The translations under genes and the position numbers were made by a program. Below the pieces are notes generated by a model. The model did no database searches and was not told the DNA's origin. It worked only from the letters and a program-made list of their open reading frames with translations. A stretch of DNA of 26,988 nucleotides from positions 1-26,988 of IMG/VR virus record IMGVR_UViG_3300020183_000386. One strand, given 5' to 3'. This document shows positions 206 through 22,992 of this stretch, piece by piece (the stretch's first letter is position 1; each line of letters starts with the position of its first letter). This stretch comes from a virus.

Positions 206-249
206 ACACCCCCGCCAGCTGCAGCTGGATCACGGGGGTGTTTCTTTTT
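206..249 (+). terminator. Rho-independent terminator between convergent genes
   Basis: ACACCCCCG (206-214) pairs perfectly with CGGGGGTGT (233-241), followed by TTCTTTTT. The loop contains the self-complementary CCAGCTGCAGCTGG (215-228), so the whole can fold as a long, mostly continuous GC-rich stem. The T-tail lies only on the + side, so this terminates the rightward gene ending at 177. The leftward 490-aa gene stops at 248, immediately beside it, and on that strand the stem is not followed by Ts. Confidence 0.85.
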
Positions 250-1720
250 ACATATGCTGTGTTCTCCACACTGGTGTTGATTTTATCTGTTGAATAAATG
301 TATTTTTATTCTTCACGGAAAAATCAATTAAACCATCATCTAGACTTTTTGGTTTACCTTGTGTTGCTTCTATTAGTTTATTATCAAAGAACGATTTAGA
401 AGCATTTACCGCATTTGATTTTTTTGGATTAGAAAGTAATTGATTAGAATCATTCAATTCTTCATAATCTAATTGTTTCTTTGTACTTGGTGTAGTTTTA
501 AGTACCATGTTCTTTTCTATTGCCTGAGAGGCATTTGCATCATTGGGATATGAATCTATTTTTTGACTTACATTTCCACCCTCTAGGAAGGTTTTAGAAT
601 CTGCCTTCATTGTTTGTGTGGAATTGTTAGATTTTATAGGAACAATCATTTCTGGATTTTTTTCTCCTGCTAGAATCATGGAAGGGCCCTTTACCATTCC
701 ACCTTCAGCAAAAGCAGGAATTAACATTTTGTTTTCTTTATTATTAACTATTGTTCTAGCTTGAATCTTATTGACCATTCTGGTTTTCATATCATTGAAT
801 GTCATATTTTTAATTTCAGTGATTGATTCCTTGTTAGTTGAATCTATTGTATAGTACATTTCTCTATTTGCGAAAGTAAAGTTTGGAGAAAATATTTGTT
901 GTCTATTGTGTTCAATTACATTTTGATTCGTTGTAGTATTCGATTCGGAAGTTGTATTACCATCTACCACATTAGTATTTGAAGACTTGTTAACAATATT
1001 CTCCAGCACATTAGTATTTGAAGACTTGTTAACAATATTCTCCAGCACATTAGTATTTGAAGACTTGTTAACAATATTCTCCAGCACATTAGTATTTGAA
1101 TATCTTGTATTAGAATTACTACTTGGTCTTATGAAATAATCAATTGAACTAAAATTGTTTTTGTAAACTTCCGATGTTTTGGGGTAGTAATTAGAGACAT
1201 GATATGAACCAGAATCTGTTGAAAAATTATAAGGCTCTTGACTAATAAAAGTCATAGACGCTATATTCTTTTCTGTTATTTCTTTTTTAGATGTTTTAGT
1301 TGGTGATTGTTTTGTTATCACCTGTGGAGCATGAAATGTATTTTCAGAAGTTGTTATTGCAGGATTTAAGTAAAGAGGACTAACAGATGAAATAAAATTA
1401 GTACTAGTATTCAATATTGTTTCTAATGGTTTATCATTTTTTTTTAAGTTGATATTATATGTGTTATTCTTAGAAACATATTCTACACTTTTGTCATATA
1501 CATCTTTATTTCCTGCTCCCTGCACGCTTACATTTATGTTTATATCTTTGGACTGACCTGTTGCAGTTTGAGGAGTGGTTGTTGGGGTGGGGATTGAGGC
1601 AGGAACTTCGCTCTGTATGCTTTCGGAATTGAACATAGAATTATCTGACAATTGAATGCTGCTAGAAAATACTTTTAGTAATTCTTCCCTTAGTCGTTCT
1701 ATGTTCTTTTTATTTTTCAT
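248..1720 (-). CDS. Candidate tail tape measure or tape-measure-tip protein, Asn/Ser-rich, 490 aa
   Basis: The start ATG at 1720 overlaps the gp51-frame stop as ATGA and has a purine-rich ribosome site (GAGGAAGAAGG) 2 bases upstream. Around residues 336-360 is FAEGGMVKGPSMILAGE followed by NPEMIVPI, which matches the GG-V-GP-LAGE-PE-VIP motif common near the ends of phage tape measure proteins. Lying directly after the gp26/gp51 chaperone pair matches the chaperone-then-tape-measure order of long-tailed phages. T4 gp29 (590 aa) is the functional counterpart. Against a classical tape measure, the rest is low-complexity Ser/Asn/Thr-rich sequence, not long helices, and residues around 205-250 include a 13-residue tandem repeat (NTNVLENIVNKSS). 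It could instead be a hub- or tape-tip-associated protein. The motif is seen, the family link is established knowledge, and the exact role is inferred. Confidence 0.5.
   Translation of the reverse strand: MKNKKNIERLREELLKVFSSSIQLSDNSMFNSESIQSEVPASIPTPTTTPQTATGQSKDININVSVQGAGNKDVYDKSVEYVSKNNTYNINLKKNDKPLETILNTSTNFISSVSPLYLNPAITTSENTFHAPQVITKQSPTKTSKKEITEKNIASMTFISQEPYNFSTDSGSYHVSNYYPKTSEVYKNNFSSIDYFIRPSSNSNTRYSNTNVLENIVNKSSNTNVLENIVNKSSNTNVLENIVNKSSNTNVVDGNTTSESNTTTNQNVIEHNRQQIFSPNFTFANREMYYTIDSTNKESITEIKNMTFNDMKTRMVNKIQARTIVNNKENKMLIPAFAEGGMVKGPSMILAGEKNPEMIVPIKSNNSTQTMKADSKTFLEGGNVSQKIDSYPNDANASQAIEKNMVLKTTPSTKKQLDYEELNDSNQLLSNPKKSNAVNASKSFFDNKLIEATQGKPKSLDDGLIDFSVKNKNTFIQQIKSTPVWRTQHM
968..1100 (-). 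repeat. 39-bp in-frame tandem repeat, about 3.4 copies
   Basis: Near-exact 39-bp units begin at 968, 1007, 1046 and 1085 (the last partial, ending near 1100), each starting CACATTAGTATTTGAA on the + strand. The period is a multiple of three, so the reading frame of the 490-aa gene is kept and each unit encodes the same 13 residues. Such repeats expand and contract by slippage or recombination. Confidence 0.95.
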
Positions 1721-1938
1721 AACCTTCTTCCTCTAGAATTAAACGCTCTATTCATATTATTTTGATTAGCGATTCTATTGTTTTCGTTCTCAACATGCTG
1801 CCTCAGTAATTCAAGATATATGTCTTTTTCCCAAGGTATCATCGATTCTAACTCTGTCAAACTATAATTATAATGGTGCATTAGTTTGAAGTTTATGTCG
1901 AATAATGATCCTAGGCTTGTATGACTGAGGCCAACCCG
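1717..1938 (-). CDS. 51: gp51-like tail/baseplate hub assembly protein frame, probably expressed by -1 frameshift from gp26
   Basis: This reading frame ends with TGA at 1719-1717, overlapping the next ATG. It encodes a conserved-looking helical stretch (LMHHYNYSLTELESMIPWEK, then DIYLELLRQHVENENNR). This resembles cyanophage gp51 and the downstream 'T' part of lambda-type G/GT tail chaperones, which carry a similar Trp-Glu, Tyr, Leu-Leu and charged-helix pattern. The frame is open back to a TAG at 2019-2017, but the only ATG/GTG/TTG ahead of the conserved part is ATG at 1881. That ATG has no Shine-Dalgarno sequence and would give only 54 residues. The feature therefore starts at the -1 frameshift site, where the frame fuses to gp26 and adds 73 residues. 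In T4, gp51 (249 aa) is described as a hub assembly catalyst; this one is much shorter. Confidence 0.65.
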   Translation of the reverse strand, partial: RVGLSHTSLGSLFDINFKLMHHYNYSLTELESMIPWEKDIYLELLRQHVENENNRIANQNNMNRAFNSRGRRL

Positions 1939-2642
1939 AAAAAATCCTTTATCCCCCTTAATACTATTGATCTCTTTACTTTGTCTGAAGTTACATATGA
2001 TACTGTTTTTTCTACTCTAGGCATTGATGAGAAGAATTCTATGATTTTATCAAATTGCTTCTTTGTCATGTTATCAATAAATTCTTTAAGTTCATCTGAA
2101 CTCATTTTATCAGAGTCTATTCTTTCATCGTGAGTTTCTATGTAATCAATACACTTCAATGCGAGTTCATAAATGTCTGAAAGTTCCATAGTCTCTAGGT
2201 CATTTGAAATAAACAAAGACAATGATGGATACTTCATATGAATAATAACATCTTCTGATATTTTAATTTTGTTCGAATGATTCTTTCCTTTAATGATATC
2301 AAGATTATCTAAATCAATTTTTAGAGTTACCTTTTCTCCTGTTTCTGGGCATATCAAAATTGGAGTTGCATATTCTTGTACCGACTTTGATCTTAACTTT
2401 ATGAACATATATTCAAGATCGAAGAGTGGTATTTTTGTTGCATCATCCACTCCATCGTAGCATGTTTCAACTACATTTGCTATTGCTTTGAGCATTTCCT
2501 TTTCTTGACCTGTTTCCTGCGCGATTAACAGTACCTTTTCTTCTTTAACAAAAAATGGTCTAAACCACACTTGTTTATTTGAAGAAGGAATTGTGTCTTG
2601 ATATTTTGGTGTTTTTGATTTTAATAATTCAATCGGATTCAT
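1911..2642 (-). CDS. 26: gp26-like baseplate hub / tail assembly chaperone protein, 243 aa
   Basis: The protein starts MNPIELLKSKTPKYQDTIPS and has the look of T4-superfamily gp26 (208 aa in T4). An N-terminal PSSNKQVWFRPFFVKEEKVL segment resembles the start of many T4-like hub proteins, and it is followed by a helical region with CPETGEKV near residue 110. The start was set at ATG 2642 because AGGAG lies just upstream; an in-frame ATG at 2669 overlaps the previous stop but has no ribosome site. The last eight codons pass over the T TTT TTC heptamer, so ribosomes would make both this 243-aa form and a frameshifted gp26-gp51 form of about 308 aa. Its place before the tape-measure candidate suggests it is the short form of a tail assembly chaperone. 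Family confidence is fair; the chaperone role is inferred. Confidence 0.7.
   Translation of the reverse strand: MNPIELLKSKTPKYQDTIPSSNKQVWFRPFFVKEEKVLLIAQETGQEKEMLKAIANVVETCYDGVDDATKIPLFDLEYMFIKLRSKSVQEYATPILICPETGEKVTLKIDLDNLDIIKGKNHSNKIKISEDVIIHMKYPSLSLFISNDLETMELSDIYELALKCIDYIETHDERIDSDKMSSDELKEFIDNMTKKQFDKIIEFFSSMPRVEKTVSYVTSDKVKRSIVLRGIKDFFGLASVIQA
1938..1944 (-). other. Putative programmed -1 ribosomal frameshift site (T TTT TTC)
   Basis: On the minus strand, in the gp26 frame, the codons read GAT TTT TTC GGG, giving a canonical X XXY YYZ heptamer T TTT TTC. Slipping back one base enters exactly the gp51-like frame and bypasses the gp26 stop at 1913-1911. A run of five Gs (minus strand 1957-1953, within AAGGGGG) lies 8 bases upstream and could act as a Shine-Dalgarno-like stimulator, as at dnaX. 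I see only weak pairing downstream and no convincing stem-loop. Confidence 0.65.
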
Positions 2643-2668: not shown

Positions 2669-3307
2669 TTAGCTTATTGTTTCAAAATAATAGTCTCTAT
2701 ATGTGAATATAGTAACAAATGTTCCATATCCAGTAACACTAGAGTCTAGTGTTGTCGGGGTTATGGATAACGGATATGCATTTCTCATTACTAAAGTAGA
2801 TGTTGGTTGTTTACTATCGTGTCTAAGACACTGTATAACAATTTGACCAGCATAATTTCCAAAGTCCAGAGTATAATCGGTATAAATGTCAGCAGACACA
2901 TTGTTACTACCAGTGGCATCTGCGTTAGCAGATGCAGGCGCCGATTGACCAATACCCCCCTTGACACCCTGTCCTCCGTTGCCACTCTTAATATCGACAG
3001 ATATAACTCTATCCATCCATTGTTCTATAAATGATCTTTCTGCCCAGTCCTGCATTATGATAAATGACATTGCACATTCACCATATTCTCTTTTTACTGG
3101 TATATTGAAATCAGGACCCCAAGGTGCATATTGAACCGTTTGAAAAGATCTAGCAGGTAATGCTATATTTTCGGGATAACAAAACATAGTTCCGTTTGGA
3201 CCTACAAGCATGACTTTGTAGCGACTAATCTGCTGCAATCCTCCGTTAAAGGATAGGATTTTCTTTTTAAATTCTGGTTTAGTGTCGCCTGTTCTATTTA
3301 AATTCAA
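2669..3307 (-). CDS. 54: gp54-like baseplate tail-tube initiator (tail tube fold), 212 aa, TTG start
   Basis: The order of motifs follows T4 gp54 and the related tube protein gp19: an N-terminal strand with RYKVMLVGPNG, then LPARSFQT, a central FIIMQDWAERSFIEQWMDRV (compare the Met-x-Asp-Trp region of gp54), and a C-terminal half of beta strands ending FVTIFTYRDYYFE. At 212 aa it is shorter than T4 gp54 (320 aa) and nearer to gp19 (163 aa), so a tube-protein variant cannot be excluded. gp54 sits on the hub and starts tube polymerisation together with gp48, which is encoded divergently nearby. The start is TTG at 3307, overlapping the gp4 stop as TTGA. An exact AGGAGG 7 bases upstream makes this start convincing despite the rare codon. 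Confidence 0.65.
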   Translation of the reverse strand: MNLNRTGDTKPEFKKKILSFNGGLQQISRYKVMLVGPNGTMFCYPENIALPARSFQTVQYAPWGPDFNIPVKREYGECAMSFIIMQDWAERSFIEQWMDRVISVDIKSGNGGQGVKGGIGQSAPASANADATGSNNVSADIYTDYTLDFGNYAGQIVIQCLRHDSKQPTSTLVMRNAYPLSITPTTLDSSVTGYGTFVTIFTYRDYYFETIS

Positions 3308-5607: not shown

Positions 5608-8600
5608 ATGTCTGAAACTAAAATTGCACAACAATTCCAAAGTCCGTTCGTATCTTTTCTACACCGAGTTAAAATTGAAAAGATTGAAAACTTTTTAAAG
5701 CCCAAATCTGAGTGGAAAGTTGTCAATTCATTTGACATTGTTACTCCAGAGAAAGTGGGAACTGGTGAGAGTAGACTATATGATATCAGAATAATTGAAA
5801 GTATAGATACTCCCTTTATACGAGGAACGCTTCAAGTTTTAGATAGAAATGACTGGATAGGACAAATGAATCTAAATGGTAGTGAAAGACTAACCATTGA
5901 ATTTGCATTCATTGACAATCTTGATATAGTGAAAATGGAGTTTTTTGTTTATGGTGCAAAAATCATAAACAATTTCAGTAATGAAAATTCTGTAAGACTG
6001 ATGGGAAATGAAAATGTCATAATATATGAACTTGAGTTCATGTCTGATGAAATTTTCAATAACACATTTGACAAGTCTGTTCTTGAATTTGATAAAGACT
6101 TTGTTGGATTGATTGCAAAGGGAACTGGTAAAGAAAGAAAAGACGGTAACTCAGAAGAAATACCAGGTTTAATCAATCAGTTAGCAACAAAACTTGGTCT
6201 TACCCCAATAGAAATAGAAGAAACAAAAAACGGAATATGGTTGAAGAGTGGAGAAATCAGTTTCCCCTCAACCTTACCACAAGGTCAAATAAATGCAACA
6301 GCATTGATGAACTACTTGACTCAATATGCGGTTTCAAAGAAAAATGTCAATGCGGTAAATTATTTCTTCTGGAAAGATAGAGATGGTTGGCACTTTAAAA
6401 GTGTTGAATCTATCTTGGAAAAGAATAAAGAAAAACCAACCGTTGAATTCGATCTCAACACTGACGATTTATTGAACAAATATAGAGTTTTGAACATCAG
6501 TGTTGTGTCTCAACATAATAACTTGGAGTTGTTCCAAAATAATGCTTTCATGTCTCATTATGTTAGAATAGATCCAGATTATAAAAATGTTTATTCTGAT
6601 TTTTTAAGTAGTAAGGCGGGGTTTACTTATTCTATAGTTGATTACAATTATCATAGAGATTTCTCAAAAGTAAATCACATTGAAACCAATAAATTAATTT
6701 CTGATAATGTAGAAACTAACCCAGTTAAAGCTTCCAGAGTTGGTAAAAATAAAACACTAAAGGAAATACCGATTCCTGCAACTTTAAGTAGGGATAATGT
6801 CTTTAGTCATTATAACACTAACACATTTAATACCCCCTTTCAATTCAATATACACCACTCTGCTGATTTTGGATTTGGTTCAAGACCAGAGGAACCAGCA
6901 TATATCTGGTGGGACTATTTGGATAGAGAAAATGATTCAAGGTGGTCAAATGTTGCATGGCAACCACAATTCGATATAACAGAACTAGAGATATCAAAAC
7001 TTCATAAGATTTACAAATACATTCGGCAACCTCTAGAGGAAAAGAGAAAAGAATTTGTAAGACTGAAGAATCTAAAAAGAAAATGGGAAGTTTATAGATG
7101 TGTAGTATGTTGTTCTAAAACAATTCCAGGCGGACCAGAAGATATTAAATTATTAAATGATCCAAAGGTCATAAAGGATCCAGAAGAATACAAATTCTTA
7201 TTTGGAGAAGATGGAATATTTTCAGAGATCAATCAAGAATATAAAATAGTTGCTGCTGGTTCATTTACCGACACTATAGATTATGATTCACAAAATGATA
7301 ATATACAGCACGGTCTTACTTTAGCGGTAAACCTAGAAAAATTTAACTTTAATACTCCTTCCGGGATTACACCTCCAGCTGGAGTTGCAGGAGATGACTA
7401 TAAACCAAATCAATGGTATTCATCTACAATAGGACAATTCTTTAATCTCAAGAGTAATATTTCAAATTACATTGATACTGTTCTACAGAGAGGGATTAAT
7501 CAATACAATTACGAAATAGGACAGATAGACACAAAAATAGAAAATATAAGACTATTTTTGGATTCTGTCGATTCTTATATTACAGAAGCAAATAATTGGA
7601 TAACAAGTAGACTTTTACCTTGTTGCGAACAACCAGAAAATACTACAACACCAATCAGCGGATCTTCCATATCCTCTTTAGTTGAATTTAGAAATGCACT
7701 TTTAGGTAATTCTGGATGTAGTGCCCCAGAACCCTGCTGCACTTGTCCAGACACATGCTTCTTCTGTGCATCAGATGGACAGTGGAAATGTGGTGGATCT
7801 TCGTGTGATGATGGTGGCAATGGCGGCGGCGGTGGTGGATCGGAGTGTACAGAAAGTCTAGGAAGACGATGTAAATTATTTTGTAATGATGTAGAAGAAG
7901 AATGTTTAAGCGTACCATGTAATTACTTTGGTGCAGCAGGATGCCAACCGTTATTACAATTTGGTGCTGCATATCAAACATGTGATCCTGCTAATAGAGT
8001 TGTTGTTGACGAACTAGTTCCTCCGGGAGAAGTTGGTTGCTCTAGTAGTCCAGATGGATGGGGAGCGTGTTGTGTAAATTGTGGTGATAATCAAGTAGAC
8101 GATGAAATTCCATGCAAGTGTATTGGTAATTTATCATTCAGCGCGTGTGAAGAAAAAGGAATTGCACTAGGCGATCCAAACCGAGCAACATTCTTCAGAG
8201 AAAGAACATGCGCTCAAATCAATAACTGTGGTATAACTTTTGGTGGTGGTTATGATTTATGTCAAGAAGGCGCAACTGCATGTTTAAGACAAGGTTGTAC
8301 AGATCCATTAACTGGTAGCGTATTTAGCAGAGAACCGGCATCATGTATTGGATTTAATTACGTTGATGGATTGGGAAATGTTCCATTAATTACTTTACCA
8401 GAAGGGGTTTGCATAAAGTGCAATAACTTCTCCACCAGTGCGTTGGATGTTGAATTTGACGATTCGAATTGCTGTAACTGTACTCTAGAACAAGCAACAA
8501 CATATTCACCACTTCCTGAATGGGCATCTGCTTGCTCAAAACAAGCATTCATGAAATCTATTGCTCAGTATATTGGAACCGAAGGAAGATGGTACAACGA

Positions 8601-11208
8601 CTATAGGTTCACTCCCGGTGGAGGAGCAGCATTTGCAGATATTGACGATTATATTGGGCCAAATGGAGATCCTGCAACTGTCAGAAGATGCTTAGATCAG
8701 GGAGACTGCTACAATACTCTTTGCTTCAATCCTCTTTATCTAGAGGTAGAAAAGAGAAGAGCAGAAGAAGAACTTAAAATACTAAATGCAGAAAAAGCAT
8801 TACTAGTGTATTCAAGAAATATCTTCCAGCAGAACTTTATACAAAAGTTCCAAGAGAATTATAACAAGTGGTGGAATAGAAAGGCATTCTTTTATTCCGT
8901 TATGCCCGGTAAAAATGTATTCACCGATATCAGCACAGGTATAACTGGCAGCGTTATTGGTGGAAGAACTGGTCCTATTGAATATTCGGAAAAGTCCTTG
9001 ATGAACATTAAATCTATCAAGAGAAAGACAATAAGAGGAAGTAGATATGAGCTTCTTGCTAAGAATAAAGGTATAACCGGAGCCGAAGTAGGAGAATGGT
9101 TATATGAATTTTTCTGGGAAAACACAAATAAACAAACTCAAGGAAATAAGCACCCATATTACTCACAGAAGTATCAAAGTCCATTTGTTTCTCAGAGACA
9201 ACTATTCGTAAATTATTTGTACAATGAAGATTCAAACAAACTAAACAATTTCCCGTTTGCTTCTCCTTATGCTCCTATATGCACCGGCAATACATACGAG
9301 TATTCGGAAAAAGCATATTTGAGTATTCCTGAGCAACAAATGCAAGAAAATGGATTTGTTTCTCAGTTTACTAAGATATTCAGAACACAATTAGATTTAA
9401 ATCTAACACAGTTGAGTCCTTTACAGTATCAACGATCATTTGATCTTTATGATATACAATTACAAAGTATACCAGCAAATCTAAAGAAAGAGCAATTGAG
9501 TTCTTATGTTAGAATAGAATTCAATAGTCCAATTGGTTTAGATAGAATCGTAGATTTCCCTAACGGATTCATCCGAGATGCAGGAACCGAATACTTCTTA
9601 CCCTATCTCGTTTCTCTCACAGCAGGTCCTACAGGACGACAGACTATTAGAAACAATGTAGTTGTTATAGGAATGGATCCTTATGGGTTTGATGTTGCAG
9701 TAAAGAAGTCCAAAGTGATGGACGAGGAAACTGAGAAACAATATAGTTGGTGGAATGAGTATAGAAATCTAAACGATACTACTTTAACCAACAATGGCAT
9801 GGATCTTTGGCCTGAAGTCGGTTTTGAAACGGCATATCCATATTATGCCGCTGATCCGAAGGGTTGGTGGTGGGATTCTGCTTGGTATCACGGGGAATCG
9901 GATGTAAAGTTGCTAGTAGGTAGCGATAGCAATAACTATGAATGGTATACCAGATCTGCGGACGTTGATCCTGAGTATAAAGAAAGTGCCCACGCAAGTG
10001 GATATCTACAGTATTCATATAGAAAGATAAAACCACATAGATCTTGGTGGTCTTTCCATATTCCAAAGAACATCTTTATACCACAGAAGTTATTCCATAT
10101 GCTTTCTACTAAATTTGCAAAGATAGATGGCGAAAGCAGTGGTATATTGGGTGACATTTTTGCATATAAGTACAAAGACTACTACTGGTGGTATGGAGAT
10201 GAAGTGGATAGATGGTTACGACTATCCAAAGAAGGTAAAGTATTTGTAGAGTCATATGGACTCAAATTATTAAGCGTTCTTTCTACTGAAGAGAACTTTG
10301 AAAATCCACTTGCAAATCATGCATTTGTACATTCAGATGATTCGGTTAATCAACTTCACCCAGGATTACAAAGTTATTTCAACGAAACGACAATGCATTG
10401 GATGTTTGGTGACTTCATGGTATATAAACCAAATCTAGTTGCTACCGATGTATGGAAATACGATTTAACTGGGGAAAGTACTTATGGAATGGTTTCTCCA
10501 AAAACCATGTCTCCGAATTACGATCTATTTGATGACAACTTCTCTGCACAATTCATAGTCTTCTCTCGACAAGTCGATCTTTGTAAACAATTTACATGCG
10601 CCAACCCAGAGGGAGAAGTGAGTAATATAGGATGTCCAGAAGATAATCCACTATGCAATTGTCCAGCACAGGAACACATTCCAGACGAACCAGAACCAAC
10701 CTATCTAGAACTATACAAAGCATACAAAGAAATAAAGGAATGCGAACTGATCGAAGAACACCTCGGTGAAGATTATCTTGGGTGTGTTTGGAGCGATCCT
10801 GCAAATCCTTGCAGTTGTAATTGTCCTGAGATTGGTAAGAAGTTCCAAGAATATTTGGAATATACTAGAACCTATGCAACTTTCTGGGATACTCCCAAAA
10901 ATACTCCACTTATCAGAAAAGCACTGATCTCTCAACTGTTCTCTCAAACTATAATGATTAATGTTACAGGGACATCAAAAGTTAAGATTGGTGATGTTGT
11001 GAAAATAAAACAACTAAACGCAGTAAATGTTCCTTTGGAAATTCCAGAAAAGAATCTACATGGGTATTGGATGGTTACAGGAGTCACAATTCAATTTAGA
11101 AAGGATTCTTCTCAATCCTTGTTACTTACTCTAACCAGAGATACCCTACCAAGAAGTCCAGATCTTACTGTTCAAAATTTGAATAGTATACTAGACAAGT
11201 TCGTTTAA
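5608..11208 (+). CDS. 27: Giant gp27-like baseplate hub protein with a very large cysteine-rich insertion, 1866 aa
   Basis: Residues about 45-200 follow the pattern of T4 gp27 domain 1: IDTPFIRGTLQVLDRND, LNGSERLTIEFAF, a strand with VYGAKIINNFS, then VIIYELEFMSDEIFNNTF. The last 90 residues (TIMINVTGTSKVKIGDVVKI to GYWMVTGVTIQFRKDSSQSL and LLTLTRDT) look like the closing hub barrel domain. T4 gp27 has 391 aa; here much of the intervening length is extra. Visible parts of the middle are: long helices around 450-490; a region at about 667-1040 with some 39 cysteines, many in CC and CxxC pairs, and a GGNGGGGGG run near 736-744; a charged helix at 1045-1072; Trp/Tyr-rich segments at about 1375-1545; and a second Cys cluster near 1655-1745. 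No lysozyme or gp5-needle signature is recognisable. ATG 5608 has no Shine-Dalgarno sequence. The hub identity is inferred from both ends and from gene order. Confidence 0.65.
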   Translation: MSETKIAQQFQSPFVSFLHRVKIEKIENFLKPKSEWKVVNSFDIVTPEKVGTGESRLYDIRIIESIDTPFIRGTLQVLDRNDWIGQMNLNGSERLTIEFAFIDNLDIVKMEFFVYGAKIINNFSNENSVRLMGNENVIIYELEFMSDEIFNNTFDKSVLEFDKDFVGLIAKGTGKERKDGNSEEIPGLINQLATKLGLTPIEIEETKNGIWLKSGEISFPSTLPQGQINATALMNYLTQYAVSKKNVNAVNYFFWKDRDGWHFKSVESILEKNKEKPTVEFDLNTDDLLNKYRVLNISVVSQHNNLELFQNNAFMSHYVRIDPDYKNVYSDFLSSKAGFTYSIVDYNYHRDFSKVNHIETNKLISDNVETNPVKASRVGKNKTLKEIPIPATLSRDNVFSHYNTNTFNTPFQFNIHHSADFGFGSRPEEPAYIWWDYLDRENDSRWSNVAWQPQFDITELEISKLHKIYKYIRQPLEEKRKEFVRLKNLKRKWEVYRCVVCCSKTIPGGPEDIKLLNDPKVIKDPEEYKFLFGEDGIFSEINQEYKIVAAGSFTDTIDYDSQNDNIQHGLTLAVNLEKFNFNTPSGITPPAGVAGDDYKPNQWYSSTIGQFFNLKSNISNYIDTVLQRGINQYNYEIGQIDTKIENIRLFLDSVDSYITEANNWITSRLLPCCEQPENTTTPISGSSISSLVEFRNALLGNSGCSAPEPCCTCPDTCFFCASDGQWKCGGSSCDDGGNGGGGGGSECTESLGRRCKLFCNDVEEECLSVPCNYFGAAGCQPLLQFGAAYQTCDPANRVVVDELVPPGEVGCSSSPDGWGACCVNCGDNQVDDEIPCKCIGNLSFSACEEKGIALGDPNRATFFRERTCAQINNCGITFGGGYDLCQEGATACLRQGCTDPLTGSVFSREPASCIGFNYVDGLGNVPLITLPEGVCIKCNNFSTSALDVEFDDSNCCNCTLEQATTYSPLPEWASACSKQAFMKSIAQYIGTEGRWYNDYRFTPGGGAAFADIDDYIGPNGDPATVRRCLDQGDCYNTLCFNPLYLEVEKRRAEEELKILNAEKALLVYSRNIFQQNFIQKFQENYNKWWNRKAFFYSVMPGKNVFTDISTGITGSVIGGRTGPIEYSEKSLMNIKSIKRKTIRGSRYELLAKNKGITGAEVGEWLYEFFWENTNKQTQGNKHPYYSQKYQSPFVSQRQLFVNYLYNEDSNKLNNFPFASPYAPICTGNTYEYSEKAYLSIPEQQMQENGFVSQFTKIFRTQLDLNLTQLSPLQYQRSFDLYDIQLQSIPANLKKEQLSSYVRIEFNSPIGLDRIVDFPNGFIRDAGTEYFLPYLVSLTAGPTGRQTIRNNVVVIGMDPYGFDVAVKKSKVMDEETEKQYSWWNEYRNLNDTTLTNNGMDLWPEVGFETAYPYYAADPKGWWWDSAWYHGESDVKLLVGSDSNNYEWYTRSADVDPEYKESAHASGYLQYSYRKIKPHRSWWSFHIPKNIFIPQKLFHMLSTKFAKIDGESSGILGDIFAYKYKDYYWWYGDEVDRWLRLSKEGKVFVESYGLKLLSVLSTEENFENPLANHAFVHSDDSVNQLHPGLQSYFNETTMHWMFGDFMVYKPNLVATDVWKYDLTGESTYGMVSPKTMSPNYDLFDDNFSAQFIVFSRQVDLCKQFTCANPEGEVSNIGCPEDNPLCNCPAQEHIPDEPEPTYLELYKAYKEIKECELIEEHLGEDYLGCVWSDPANPCSCNCPEIGKKFQEYLEYTRTYATFWDTPKNTPLIRKALISQLFSQTIMINVTGTSKVKIGDVVKIKQLNAVNVPLEIPEKNLHGYWMVTGVTIQFRKDSSQSLLLTLTRDTLPRSPDLTVQNLNSILDKFV

Positions 11209-18999: not shown

Positions 19000-21300
19000 A
19001 TGCCATTTACCAGAGATCAACAAATTTCAAACCTTTCGCCAACAACCACATTTTATGATTGGTGGCAAAAAGAAAACGATGAAATTATCGAAAAATTAAA
19101 CCAATTACGAGTCTTTAGTGCTACGGGTGGTGGTGGTATTTTTGCTGCTACTGACACGAATGGTCTTTTAACTATTAGTCTCGGTGGATCTCAAGGTGTT
19201 TCCCAAGGTATTACTTTCTCTGGTGATGTTCAATTTACTGGAAATACAATTTTACCGAACATTTCTTACAAAGTTACAGGTATCACTTCTGGTACTTCTG
19301 GATTTACTTTTGGTACTCCTGTTTGGGTAGATACGACTGCGACATCTGGATATAGTGCAGGAAATTGCACATCAGCAGACAGTTCTGAAATAGTAGGTTT
19401 AATTACTCAAAGAACCACAACTTACTCTACTATTACTGTATGCGGTAAAATTGATGGTGACTTTAGAAATACGGAAAGCACAGGAAATGATTTATCTGCT
19501 GGATGCATTTACTTCTTAGGAGATACTACAGGGAAGTTAAATGTTACAGAACCATCAACAGATGGATATGTTTCAAAACCGTTGCTAATGGGTTTGGGTG
19601 CGACTTCTGGTGTAGTTTTACCACTAAGAGGCCAATTACTTGATTCTAGTTCTGGTTCTGGTGGCAATACATATGGTTCAAATGACATATTTGTAGTTCT
19701 ACCATCTGCAAGTTCTTCTGACTTTACTGTTGGTAAAGTTGTTTCGTACTTTCCAGATGAAACACTATTGGGTCAATATTTAACATCAGATCCTGCATCG
19801 AGAAGTCAATATGGTGGATTTTTCTTAAGTAGATCGGGATCAGTTAAAGAAGGAGCACAACCAAAATCTCCATTTACCAATGATAACGAAGAAGATGCTG
19901 TAGTTGGAACAGTTACACAGGCAACGAACGTTGGTGGTGGTAATTACCTGTATAGAATTACTACTTTTGGTGCTGTTCCTATAGATCTTGGTGACCCTGG
20001 TTATTTTTATCTTAGCAACAACTGGACATCATCTGCAACTCAATTAATTTACAATTCATCGGCAACATATGCAGGAAAATTATACGCAATTCAGTACGAT
20101 GCTGGCAATCATACTATTGTAAATAGAAATCTTAAAGGATACGGAAGTCAGCAAGCAAGTTTCCTTCTTTCTGCTTCCACCTCAACAGGTTCAACTGCTG
20201 GTAGTCTAACAAAGAATCAACTTCTCAACGGCGACTACTCAATTTGGCAAAGAGAAGAAGGTAAACTTTCTGGATACACTGGACAGGAAAACTTAGTGTT
20301 TGCTGACATGTGGAGAAGAATTGATGGTATAACTGGTGCAACGGCAGGAACTAAGGATTTCCGAGTCGAAAGAAAAACCTTTGATGATTATCAGACCAGC
20401 ATTGAAGGTAATCCAGAATACTACCTACAAGTAAAAGCACTAGCAGCAACATGTGGTGCGACAGCAGATTATATAACAATTGGTCATGTAATTCCTAGTG
20501 CAAAGGCATTCAACGATCAAGATGTAGTTCTAAGTTTCTACATGAAGTGTTCACACAACAGTTATTCTGTAGATCTTTATTATGCCAGATATAATAATGG
20601 AATACAAGCAGACAAGACTTTAATTGATACAGTAACTCCATCAACTAGCTGGCAAAGATTTGATGTCACGTTTACTATCACGGATCTTGCAGATCTACTA
20701 ACAACAAGAGTAGATGATTATACTGAAGTTGGTTTTGATTTGATTCCACTTGTCAAAACTGCAATCAATAATGCAGTATCAATTTCTACGAATGTTTATG
20801 TTGACATTGCTTCTGTTTGCCTTTTCCCTGGCGATAAACTGTTCGCTCCTCATACACACGAAGAGTTTTCAAATAGATTAAATGAGTGCAGAAGATATTA
20901 TTTCTCCTCATATGATCTAGAACAGTATGCTGGCAAAGCGGTTCTCTTTGATGGTGGCGATATTTTAGGAACACCAAACCACACATACTTTCCACTAAAT
21001 GATTGCAACTTTACAAAGTGGACTGTTCCTATGCGAGACGATCCAACTGTTACAATTTACTCTCCATATTCTGGACAGCAAAATGATGCATATAATTTTG
21101 ATGCAGGAAGAGATTGTAGATTAACAAGTGGAACATTCGGATATAACGGAGCAAATAGAGTTGCGATAAACAATACAGCAACTACCTCAATAGAATCAAA
21201 CAAAAATGGTGTAAAGGTATGTGTTACACAAGGTAGAGTAATTTATGATAAGTTGTTCTACCATATAATAGCAGACGCAGATTATCCTCTACCATCATAA
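19000..21300 (+). CDS. Tail fibre-like protein with C-terminal carbohydrate-binding-like domain, 766 aa
   Basis: The N-terminus has FYDWWQKENDEIIEKLNQL (18-36), a motif frequent at the start of fibre-type structural proteins of marine T4-like phages and likely a trimeric coiled-coil anchor. It is followed by a Gly-rich spacer and strand repeats such as EIVGLITQ and CIYFLGDTTGKLNVTEPS (about 130-210), of a kind shared with the next gene. From about 405 comes a tail-tip domain of familiar type: NQLLNGDYSIWQREEG, FADMWRR, a jelly-roll-like middle (PSTSWQRFDVTFTI) and NRLNECRRYYFSSYD near 625. In other phages this arrangement (NGNFDIWQRG, ADRW, CQRYY) marks a carbohydrate-binding-like fibre domain. 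The protein likely touches the host surface. The exact receptor and T4 counterpart are unknown. Confidence 0.72.
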   Translation: MPFTRDQQISNLSPTTTFYDWWQKENDEIIEKLNQLRVFSATGGGGIFAATDTNGLLTISLGGSQGVSQGITFSGDVQFTGNTILPNISYKVTGITSGTSGFTFGTPVWVDTTATSGYSAGNCTSADSSEIVGLITQRTTTYSTITVCGKIDGDFRNTESTGNDLSAGCIYFLGDTTGKLNVTEPSTDGYVSKPLLMGLGATSGVVLPLRGQLLDSSSGSGGNTYGSNDIFVVLPSASSSDFTVGKVVSYFPDETLLGQYLTSDPASRSQYGGFFLSRSGSVKEGAQPKSPFTNDNEEDAVVGTVTQATNVGGGNYLYRITTFGAVPIDLGDPGYFYLSNNWTSSATQLIYNSSATYAGKLYAIQYDAGNHTIVNRNLKGYGSQQASFLLSASTSTGSTAGSLTKNQLLNGDYSIWQREEGKLSGYTGQENLVFADMWRRIDGITGATAGTKDFRVERKTFDDYQTSIEGNPEYYLQVKALAATCGATADYITIGHVIPSAKAFNDQDVVLSFYMKCSHNSYSVDLYYARYNNGIQADKTLIDTVTPSTSWQRFDVTFTITDLADLLTTRVDDYTEVGFDLIPLVKTAINNAVSISTNVYVDIASVCLFPGDKLFAPHTHEEFSNRLNECRRYYFSSYDLEQYAGKAVLFDGGDILGTPNHTYFPLNDCNFTKWTVPMRDDPTVTIYSPYSGQQNDAYNFDAGRDCRLTSGTFGYNGANRVAINNTATTSIESNKNGVKVCVTQGRVIYDKLFYHIIADADYPLPS

Positions 21301-21312
21301 TAGGAGTTAAAT

Positions 21313-22992
21313 ATGCCGTGTGGAAGCAGTTCAAATATCAATGTTTCTAAAACTTTCGTTGAAGTAAATCCTGCTGCGTTTGCAAGTAGTAGATTTGTTG
21401 TTACTATTCCAAGCGGAAGTTATGCAGCAGGAATTACTGGTGGTGATGTAATCTATTATGGTGTCACTTTTGGTGAATACAGAAAAGCAAAAGCAGACGA
21501 TCCAGTAAGTTCAGAAGTTTTTGGTATTGTGGAATCTAGAAATTTCATAAGTGGAAGCATCGATGTTGTTACACAAGGATCCATTAACTTTCCATCAACT
21601 GGATTTACGGCAACGGCGGCCGGGGGTGGTGCTGGTGGACTAGACGTTTATTTCTTGAGTGATACTGATGCAGGAAAAATTCAACCTCTTGCTCCAACTG
21701 AAGTTGGACATATAGTAAAACCAGTATATCAAGTAGGAGAACATGGTGGATCATATACTGGTCTTGTAACAAACTATATTGGTTATAATATAGGAACAGA
21801 AGTAGAAACTACTATTGGTGGGTTTTCTAGTGGAGTCGGTAGTTTAGTCTTTACTTTTGGTGAGATAGATGATCCTTCATATGTTTGTATTTCAAAAGTT
21901 TCGAATGAATTTCCAGGTCGTACAAAAATATTACCATTAACTTCAGAATATATTCCTTTGTTTGAAAAAATTGGAATACAATTCGGATTTATTTATCGCA
22001 TACAATTGAAGTTACAAAATGCATCTGAAGTTTTGACTAGATCTGCCATTGTAGCAGCATCTGGAGATCCATATGGCGGATATGGGGGGATAGGGTATTA
22101 TACAACTGCAACATCTTCTGCTGCTGGTAATTCGTTGTTGGATTCATTAACTTTTGACTTAAATGATATTACATCTTACCAAGGAAAATATGCACCATCA
22201 ATTTATGGTAGAAGAGTAATTGGTAGTAATAGAGATGGAAAGTTAAATTATGTTTATAGTTCAGAAAACAATCCATTTAATATAACAAATGATGCACAAA
22301 GAACATCAGCACTTTTAAGGGGATCTTGGACTAATCCTCAGCAACAAACAAACTGGTGGAGCGTCGTAGAACAAACTCCAGATTTTGATGATGAAAATTA
22401 TTTTTATCTTTATACCACTGGATATGGTCTAGAACCCCTTACAATTGGAGAGTCACCATATCAAATAATAGATGGAAAGTATTACCTAAATGATTTATCG
22501 GTATATGCTCCGTCCTATAACAATGGACTAACAGATCCTACAAATAGTCCATATAGATTCTACTTTGACACATTGGCAAATTCATATGCAGGAACAAATG
22601 GATCACAATTACCAAGCGATATAGTTTTAGCAACTAGAGCAGAAATTGTTGGATTCGCATTACCGCTCATAGATGTTTCTACATCTCATGATCCGAATAT
22701 TCAATTATTACCAATTCAAGTATTACAGGCCGACGACACGGCCGGCAATGCAACATATGCTTTCAATCCAATTCCATTAACTCAATACGGTAGATATGAT
22801 CTAAATGTATACATGAAAGTAAAGGATACTGGTATGTCTTCATATCTACCAAGATCAGTTGCAATCGAAGATACACTTGAAGTTCCAACATTAAAATATG
22901 GAGCAGAGAAAATTGATCTAGAAACAAAGATAGATAGTCTTATATCTCGTCTTGTAAATATTGAGAACAGATTAAGAATACCCCCACCATAA
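21313..22992 (+). CDS. Fibre-like virion protein with C-terminal coiled coil, 559 aa
   Basis: AGGAG 8 bases before the ATG gives a clear start, 12 bases after the previous stop. Residues 60-150 (SSEVFGIVESRNFISGSIDV, then VYFLSDTDAGKIQPLAP and GHIVKPVYQVG) share the strand pattern of residues 130-210 in the preceding fibre, so the two genes are related in part. The rest is strand-rich with Tyr/Gly segments (GDPYGGYGGIGYYTT). The last 35 residues are a short heptad-like helix (KIDLETKIDSLISRLVNIEN) ending PPP, which suggests trimerisation at the C-terminus. It is probably a baseplate-attached fibre or fibre-connector. No catalytic motif is seen and no T4 gene is clearly matched. Confidence 0.6.
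   Translation: MPCGSSSNINVSKTFVEVNPAAFASSRFVVTIPSGSYAAGITGGDVIYYGVTFGEYRKAKADDPVSSEVFGIVESRNFISGSIDVVTQGSINFPSTGFTATAAGGGAGGLDVYFLSDTDAGKIQPLAPTEVGHIVKPVYQVGEHGGSYTGLVTNYIGYNIGTEVETTIGGFSSGVGSLVFTFGEIDDPSYVCISKVSNEFPGRTKILPLTSEYIPLFEKIGIQFGFIYRIQLKLQNASEVLTRSAIVAASGDPYGGYGGIGYYTTATSSAAGNSLLDSLTFDLNDITSYQGKYAPSIYGRRVIGSNRDGKLNYVYSSENNPFNITNDAQRTSALLRGSWTNPQQQTNWWSVVEQTPDFDDENYFYLYTTGYGLEPLTIGESPYQIIDGKYYLNDLSVYAPSYNNGLTDPTNSPYRFYFDTLANSYAGTNGSQLPSDIVLATRAEIVGFALPLIDVSTSHDPNIQLLPIQVLQADDTAGNATYAFNPIPLTQYGRYDLNVYMKVKDTGMSSYLPRSVAIEDTLEVPTLKYGAEKIDLETKIDSLISRLVNIENRLRIPPP

Follow-up and report, generated by a model that had tools for sequence, protein, structure and literature searches.

A −1 frameshift occurs in phage lambda G/GT at the heptamer G GGA AAG and in Escherichia coli dnaX at A AAA AAG, the latter accompanied by a strong downstream hairpin. 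The lambda proteins gpG and gpGT are encoded in two overlapping frames that precede the tape-measure gene, with the heptamer late in the first open reading frame (ORF) and a −1 extension that lacks its own start, giving a short and a long product (PMC5009743). This 2016 review describes G-T frameshifting as widely conserved, T4 excepted. In Vandenendeviridae and Andersonviridae, the TAC-N/TAC-NC genes (as in phage Adele) likewise have a conserved −1 frameshift at a T-rich site just before the tape measure, and their second ORF is annotated as hypothetical (PMC12846349). Vladimirov, Gautam and Davidson (2022; Virology 566:9-15) identified and named T4-like tail assembly chaperones, and the title of their paper suggests for these phages a mechanism other than frameshifting. 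The passages that cite this study describe T4-like phages in which a short gene goes with a fused long one (PMC10885494) and slippery poly-T sites in the chaperone genes of such phages (PMC12846349). The frameshifted kind of chaperone is already known from other phages, and, going by papers that cite Vladimirov et al. (2022), the G/GT analogy for T4-like phages is published. Beside the passages citing that study, the present analysis adds a tally from 140 loci, the placing of the start of −1 coding at the slip site, and a Shine-Dalgarno (SD)-like element.

We analyzed a stretch of 26,988 nucleotides (the window; positions 1-26,988 of IMG/VR record IMGVR_UViG_3300020183_000386) from a T4-like phage of uncultured origin. 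On its minus strand, gp26 starts at ATG 2642 with AGGAG immediately 5' and matches Pfam PF12322 (T4_baseplate, E=2e-53) and phrog_150 (E=9e-54); NCBIfam returned zero matches for gp26 or for the 490-aa ORF downstream. Near its end, gp26 reads through gaT TTT TTC and then eight further codons (GLASVIQA) before its stop. Translation of both frames across minus-strand positions 2800-1500 confirmed what an earlier note on this DNA had described, namely a T TTT TTC in the gp26 frame, a −1 frame without stops from 2016 to the TGA at 1719-1717, and products of 243 and about 308 aa (Table 1). The first −1 codon past the slip is CGG (1938-1936), so that the predicted junction reads DFF-RVGL. The gp51 tail encoded there matches phrog_634 (baseplate hub assembly catalyst, E=8e-23) and returned zero matches in Pfam. 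The window locus contains both the PF12322 domain and the gp51 tail, placing it in the T4 gp26/gp51 family. We propose, with a probability of roughly 0.9, that gp26 and gp51 are one gene with two readings, in which −1 slippage at T TTT TTC gives a short and a long chaperone.

Table 1. Positions of the gp26/gp51 locus and its flanking genes in the window
Feature	Positions	Strand	Basis
Tail-tube-like gene, 5' of gp26	2669..3307	-	phrog_45 tail tube, E=4e-11 on the 2669-3232 part
gp26 short form, 243 aa, G-like N-terminal chaperone domain	1911..2642	-	PF12322 and phrog_150 matches
Predicted gp26-gp51 frameshift product, GT-like long form, 308 aa	1717..2642	-	Joined translation, family HMM
SD-like AAGGGGG, candidate stimulator, 8 nt 5' of heptamer	1953..1959	-	Anti-SD duplex energy
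Slippery heptamer T TTT TTC	1938..1944	-	gp26 frame (gaT TTT TTC)
0-frame stop TAG, short-form end	1911..1913	-	Translation
−1 frame extension, gp51 tail, T-like domain, 73 aa, N-terminal RVGLSHTSLGSL	1717..1938	-	phrog_634
490-aa ORF, tape-measure candidate	248..1720	-	Position; directly 3', ATGA overlap with gp51 stop

In an AT-rich window such as this one, a slippery heptamer by itself is not rare: among 8362 codons there are 61 in-frame XXXYYYZ and six in-frame T TTT TTN. Its conservation lifts it above chance. From IMG/VR and public phages we collected 205 loci by gp26 similarity (window included), which reduce to 140 non-redundant loci at <90% identity over 450 nt; they lean toward cyanophage-like groups and are mutually related, so that the counts are not independent trials. 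In all 140, the window among them, the end of gp26 has T TTT TTN in the matching frame; of the 158 other Phe-Phe pairs within the same gp26 genes, only 6 form this heptamer. The check proposed in the earlier note, that heptamer and relative frame be conserved in relatives, was thus passed. The last base of the heptamer is C in 127 loci, T in seven, A in five and G in one; the codon preceding it varies (TCT, AGT, GAT, AAT, GCT), always ending in T. Counted from the first base of the heptamer, the 0-frame stop starts at 10 nt in 125 of the 140 loci and at 7, 25 or 31 nt in the remainder, so that the place where the 0 frame ends is not strictly conserved. Relatives carrying the layout include Aeromonas PX29, Vibrio K567, Cronobacter LPCS28, Stenotrophomonas Moby and Rhizobium RHph_Y68.

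Two relatives depart from the common sequence. In Rhizobium phage RHph_Y68 (L042, last gp26 codons, ending 3184), the site is T TTT TTG and the second codon encodes Leu (DFLH), with the −1 tail kept. In Vibrio phage K483 (L044, 3075-3190), a gp51-like −1 tail follows gp26, and CTT TTC AAG takes the place of the T run. The slip site is therefore not universal, and K483 has either another slip site or a separate gp51 start.

The same survey bears on the idea that a one-base indel, introduced in sequencing or assembly, split one continuous gene. That T4 encodes a protein of this kind, gp51, in a single continuous ORF speaks for such an error. The layout nevertheless recurs in 140 non-redundant loci, including the finished isolates S-PM2, P-SSM4, S-SM1, PX29 and Moby, and the relatives already contradict this explanation, which we regard as hardly credible.

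If ribosomes do slip at the heptamer, coding in the −1 frame is expected to begin there, and column entropies over the 140 loci follow this pattern. Codon periodicity is in the 0 frame 5' of the heptamer and in the −1 frame from +6 onward (entropies of 1.09, 0.77 and 1.45 for −1 codon positions 1, 2 and 3). The −1 frame is conserved from the first codon past the heptamer, and the residue that follows FF is Arg in 125 of the 140 loci. Upstream, the −1 frame is closed by a stop within 12 nt of the heptamer in 49 of the 140, and directly at it in 11. The second ORF is thus in the −1 frame and conserved from the slip site, without a conserved start of its own.

Alternatively, gp51 could be a separate small protein translated from an internal −1 start (ATG 1881 in the window), perhaps coupled to gp26 termination. 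Public annotations do give gp51 its own CDS, and 43 of the 140 loci have an ATG at +15. Yet the annotated starts are scattered: they lie at about +60 in HTVC008M and Mosig and at an ATG nearer the heptamer in S-SM1, and in LPCS28 gp51 is unannotated, in line with the earlier remark that gp51 is easily missed, since missed or mis-started copies are found in public records. Moreover, in 76 of the 140 loci the −1 frame lacks any start codon up to and including +15, and an internal start there would lose the conserved RIALSH part. The SDs of the internal starts are weak, with a median of the best per locus of −1.0, compared to −4.0 for gp26 starts. A conserved gp51 start with its own ribosome site, which the earlier note had named as contrary evidence, was not seen among the 140 loci. 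In the window, ATG 1881 lacks a usable SD, as had been described, but it is only the first, and not the sole, −1 start past the heptamer: TTG 1860, likewise without a usable SD, and later in-frame ATGs follow, and the duplex energies at 1881 and 1860 are +1.6 and +1.8. A separate gp51 also leaves unexplained why T TTT TTN is invariant, silent positions included. We consider it very unlikely. A frameshift product, by contrast with a protein begun at ATG 1881, would contain the predicted peptide VGLSHTSLGSLFDINFK, encoded in the −1 frame between the heptamer and that ATG; predicted digestion across the junction of the window product yields only DFFR with trypsin and DFFRVGLSHTSLGSLFDINFK with Lys-C.

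Upstream of the heptamer, a GAGGG-like stretch is conserved at −14 to −9 in the family. Its predicted pairing with the 3' end of 16S rRNA averages −6.8 kcal/mol, whereas synonymous resampling gives −5.1, so that it exceeds the demands of coding modestly. The AAGGGGG that had been noticed in the window does lie 8 bases 5' of the heptamer, and its anti-SD duplex energy of −11.2 kcal/mol (mean −5.5) was equaled in none of 50 synonymous resamplings. The E. coli dnaX frameshift, in an unrelated protein, has a similar SD-like stimulator about 10 nt 5' of its heptamer. On the 3' side, RNA folding in the family exceeds that of shuffles (mean z −1.8, control −0.4). RNAalifold found no consensus for a downstream structure, whose shapes differ among family members, and none is predicted in the window (z +1.1 and +0.5 for the nearest 50 nt). 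Because of the latter, the G-run is the better candidate stimulator in the window.

The element also bears on a third explanation, in which RNA polymerase slips on the T run and produces mixed mRNAs, leaving the ribosome uninvolved. Every locus does have a homopolymer run of T, which speaks for this explanation. However, the run comprises just 6 T in 133 of the 140 loci and at most 8, and short homopolymer runs slip poorly in transcription. Furthermore, it is kept in the exact X XXY YYZ register and accompanied by the upstream SD-like element. The register and the element are both signs of ribosomal slippage, and polymerase slippage appears extremely unlikely.

T4 itself provides a comparison for the long form. 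Like the window locus, T4 gp26 and gp51 have the PF12322 domain, and T4 gp51 has the same C-terminal tail; T4, however, encodes them as two separate genes on opposite strands (gene 26, 208 aa; gene 51, 249 aa) without a heptamer, whereas the window phage uses two frames of one locus. Both T4 proteins match PF12322, and their mutual alignment is weak (E=2e-6, in a single comparison). T4 gp51 combines the domain and the C-terminal tail in one ORF, and T4 gp26 corresponds to the short form, whose C-terminus (GLKEFFELL) keeps the terminal Phe-Phe with the codons TTC TTT. A profile HMM built from hypothetical gp26-gp51 fusions of 139 loci aligns uninterrupted through the FF-R junction to the single-ORF gp51 of T4 and of Klebsiella 311F. 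The natural existence of a single-ORF long form in T4 thus lends support to the reality of the frameshift product in the other phages.

In agreement with the earlier suggestion that gp26/gp51 is the G/GT equivalent of this lineage, gene order and the short/long paralogy of T4 gp26 and gp51 are both consistent with it. As in lambda, the two overlapping frames precede a putative tape-measure gene, the heptamer comes late in the first ORF, and the −1 extension lacks its own start; the window differs in its heptamer and in its PF12322 chaperone domain. The T-rich site before the putative tape measure also recalls TAC-N/TAC-NC, which belong to other phage families and have GTTTTT as their conserved motif. 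The locus is flanked by the tail-tube-like gene upstream and the large ORF downstream, which from its position is a tape-measure candidate. Homologues of this 490-aa ORF occupy the same place in L006-L018, most relatives have a large ORF in the equivalent position after gp51, and in HTVC008M the second gene past gp51 is annotated as a putative tail tape measure. A GGMVKGP...GE tape-measure motif in the 490-aa ORF was dropped as evidence, being present in only 1 of 34 ORFs seen whole. The same ORF contains a 39-bp tandem repeat (3.6 copies, 968-1108) with the 13-aa unit SNTNVLENIVNKS. Elsewhere in the window, an 1866-aa ORF (5608-11208) with a long Cys-rich middle part has phrog_350 (tail protein) as its sole PHROG match, best on residues 58-369, and large ORFs of 766 and 559 aa (19000-22992) have no PHROG match at E 0.01.

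The AlphaFold2 model of gp26 has a mean pLDDT of 90, with residues 237-243 past the heptamer below 50. Foldseek found many viral relatives and no significant match in the PDB, where the HK97 tail assembly chaperone (2ob9) took ranks 2 and 3 with weak scores (E=0.6, probability 0.63 and 0.54) that are suggestive only. Searched by sequence, the gp26 profile matched no PDB chain.

Taken together, the layout suggests the following order of events. Most ribosomes would terminate at TAG 1913-1911 and release the short form of 243 aa. A minority, in which two Phe-tRNAs occupy T TTT TTC, would move back by one base, probably aided by pairing of the AAGGGGG just upstream with 16S rRNA, and would go on to make the 308-aa protein that bears the gp51 tail; we infer both the slip and its rate. 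By analogy, gp26/gp51 very probably acts as lambda G/GT does: the short form would coat the tape-measure protein, the tail of the long form would recruit tail-tube subunits, and both forms would depart before the tail is complete.

We somewhat favor the view that T TTT TTN frameshifting is ancestral across most T4-like phages (cyanophages, pelagiphages, and Aeromonas, Vibrio and Rhizobium relatives), with the upstream SD-like element as a shared stimulator, and that T4, along with its close kin, departed from this by replacing frameshifting with gene duplication and fusion. Frameshifting at this locus would change the annotation of many marine and other T4-like phages, in that gp26 and gp51 would become one frameshifted gene. 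The finding helps account for an old puzzle by assigning T4 gp51 the role of long form in a pair of chaperones, and allows frameshift and gene duplication to be compared cleanly as two routes to the same pair of short and long proteins.
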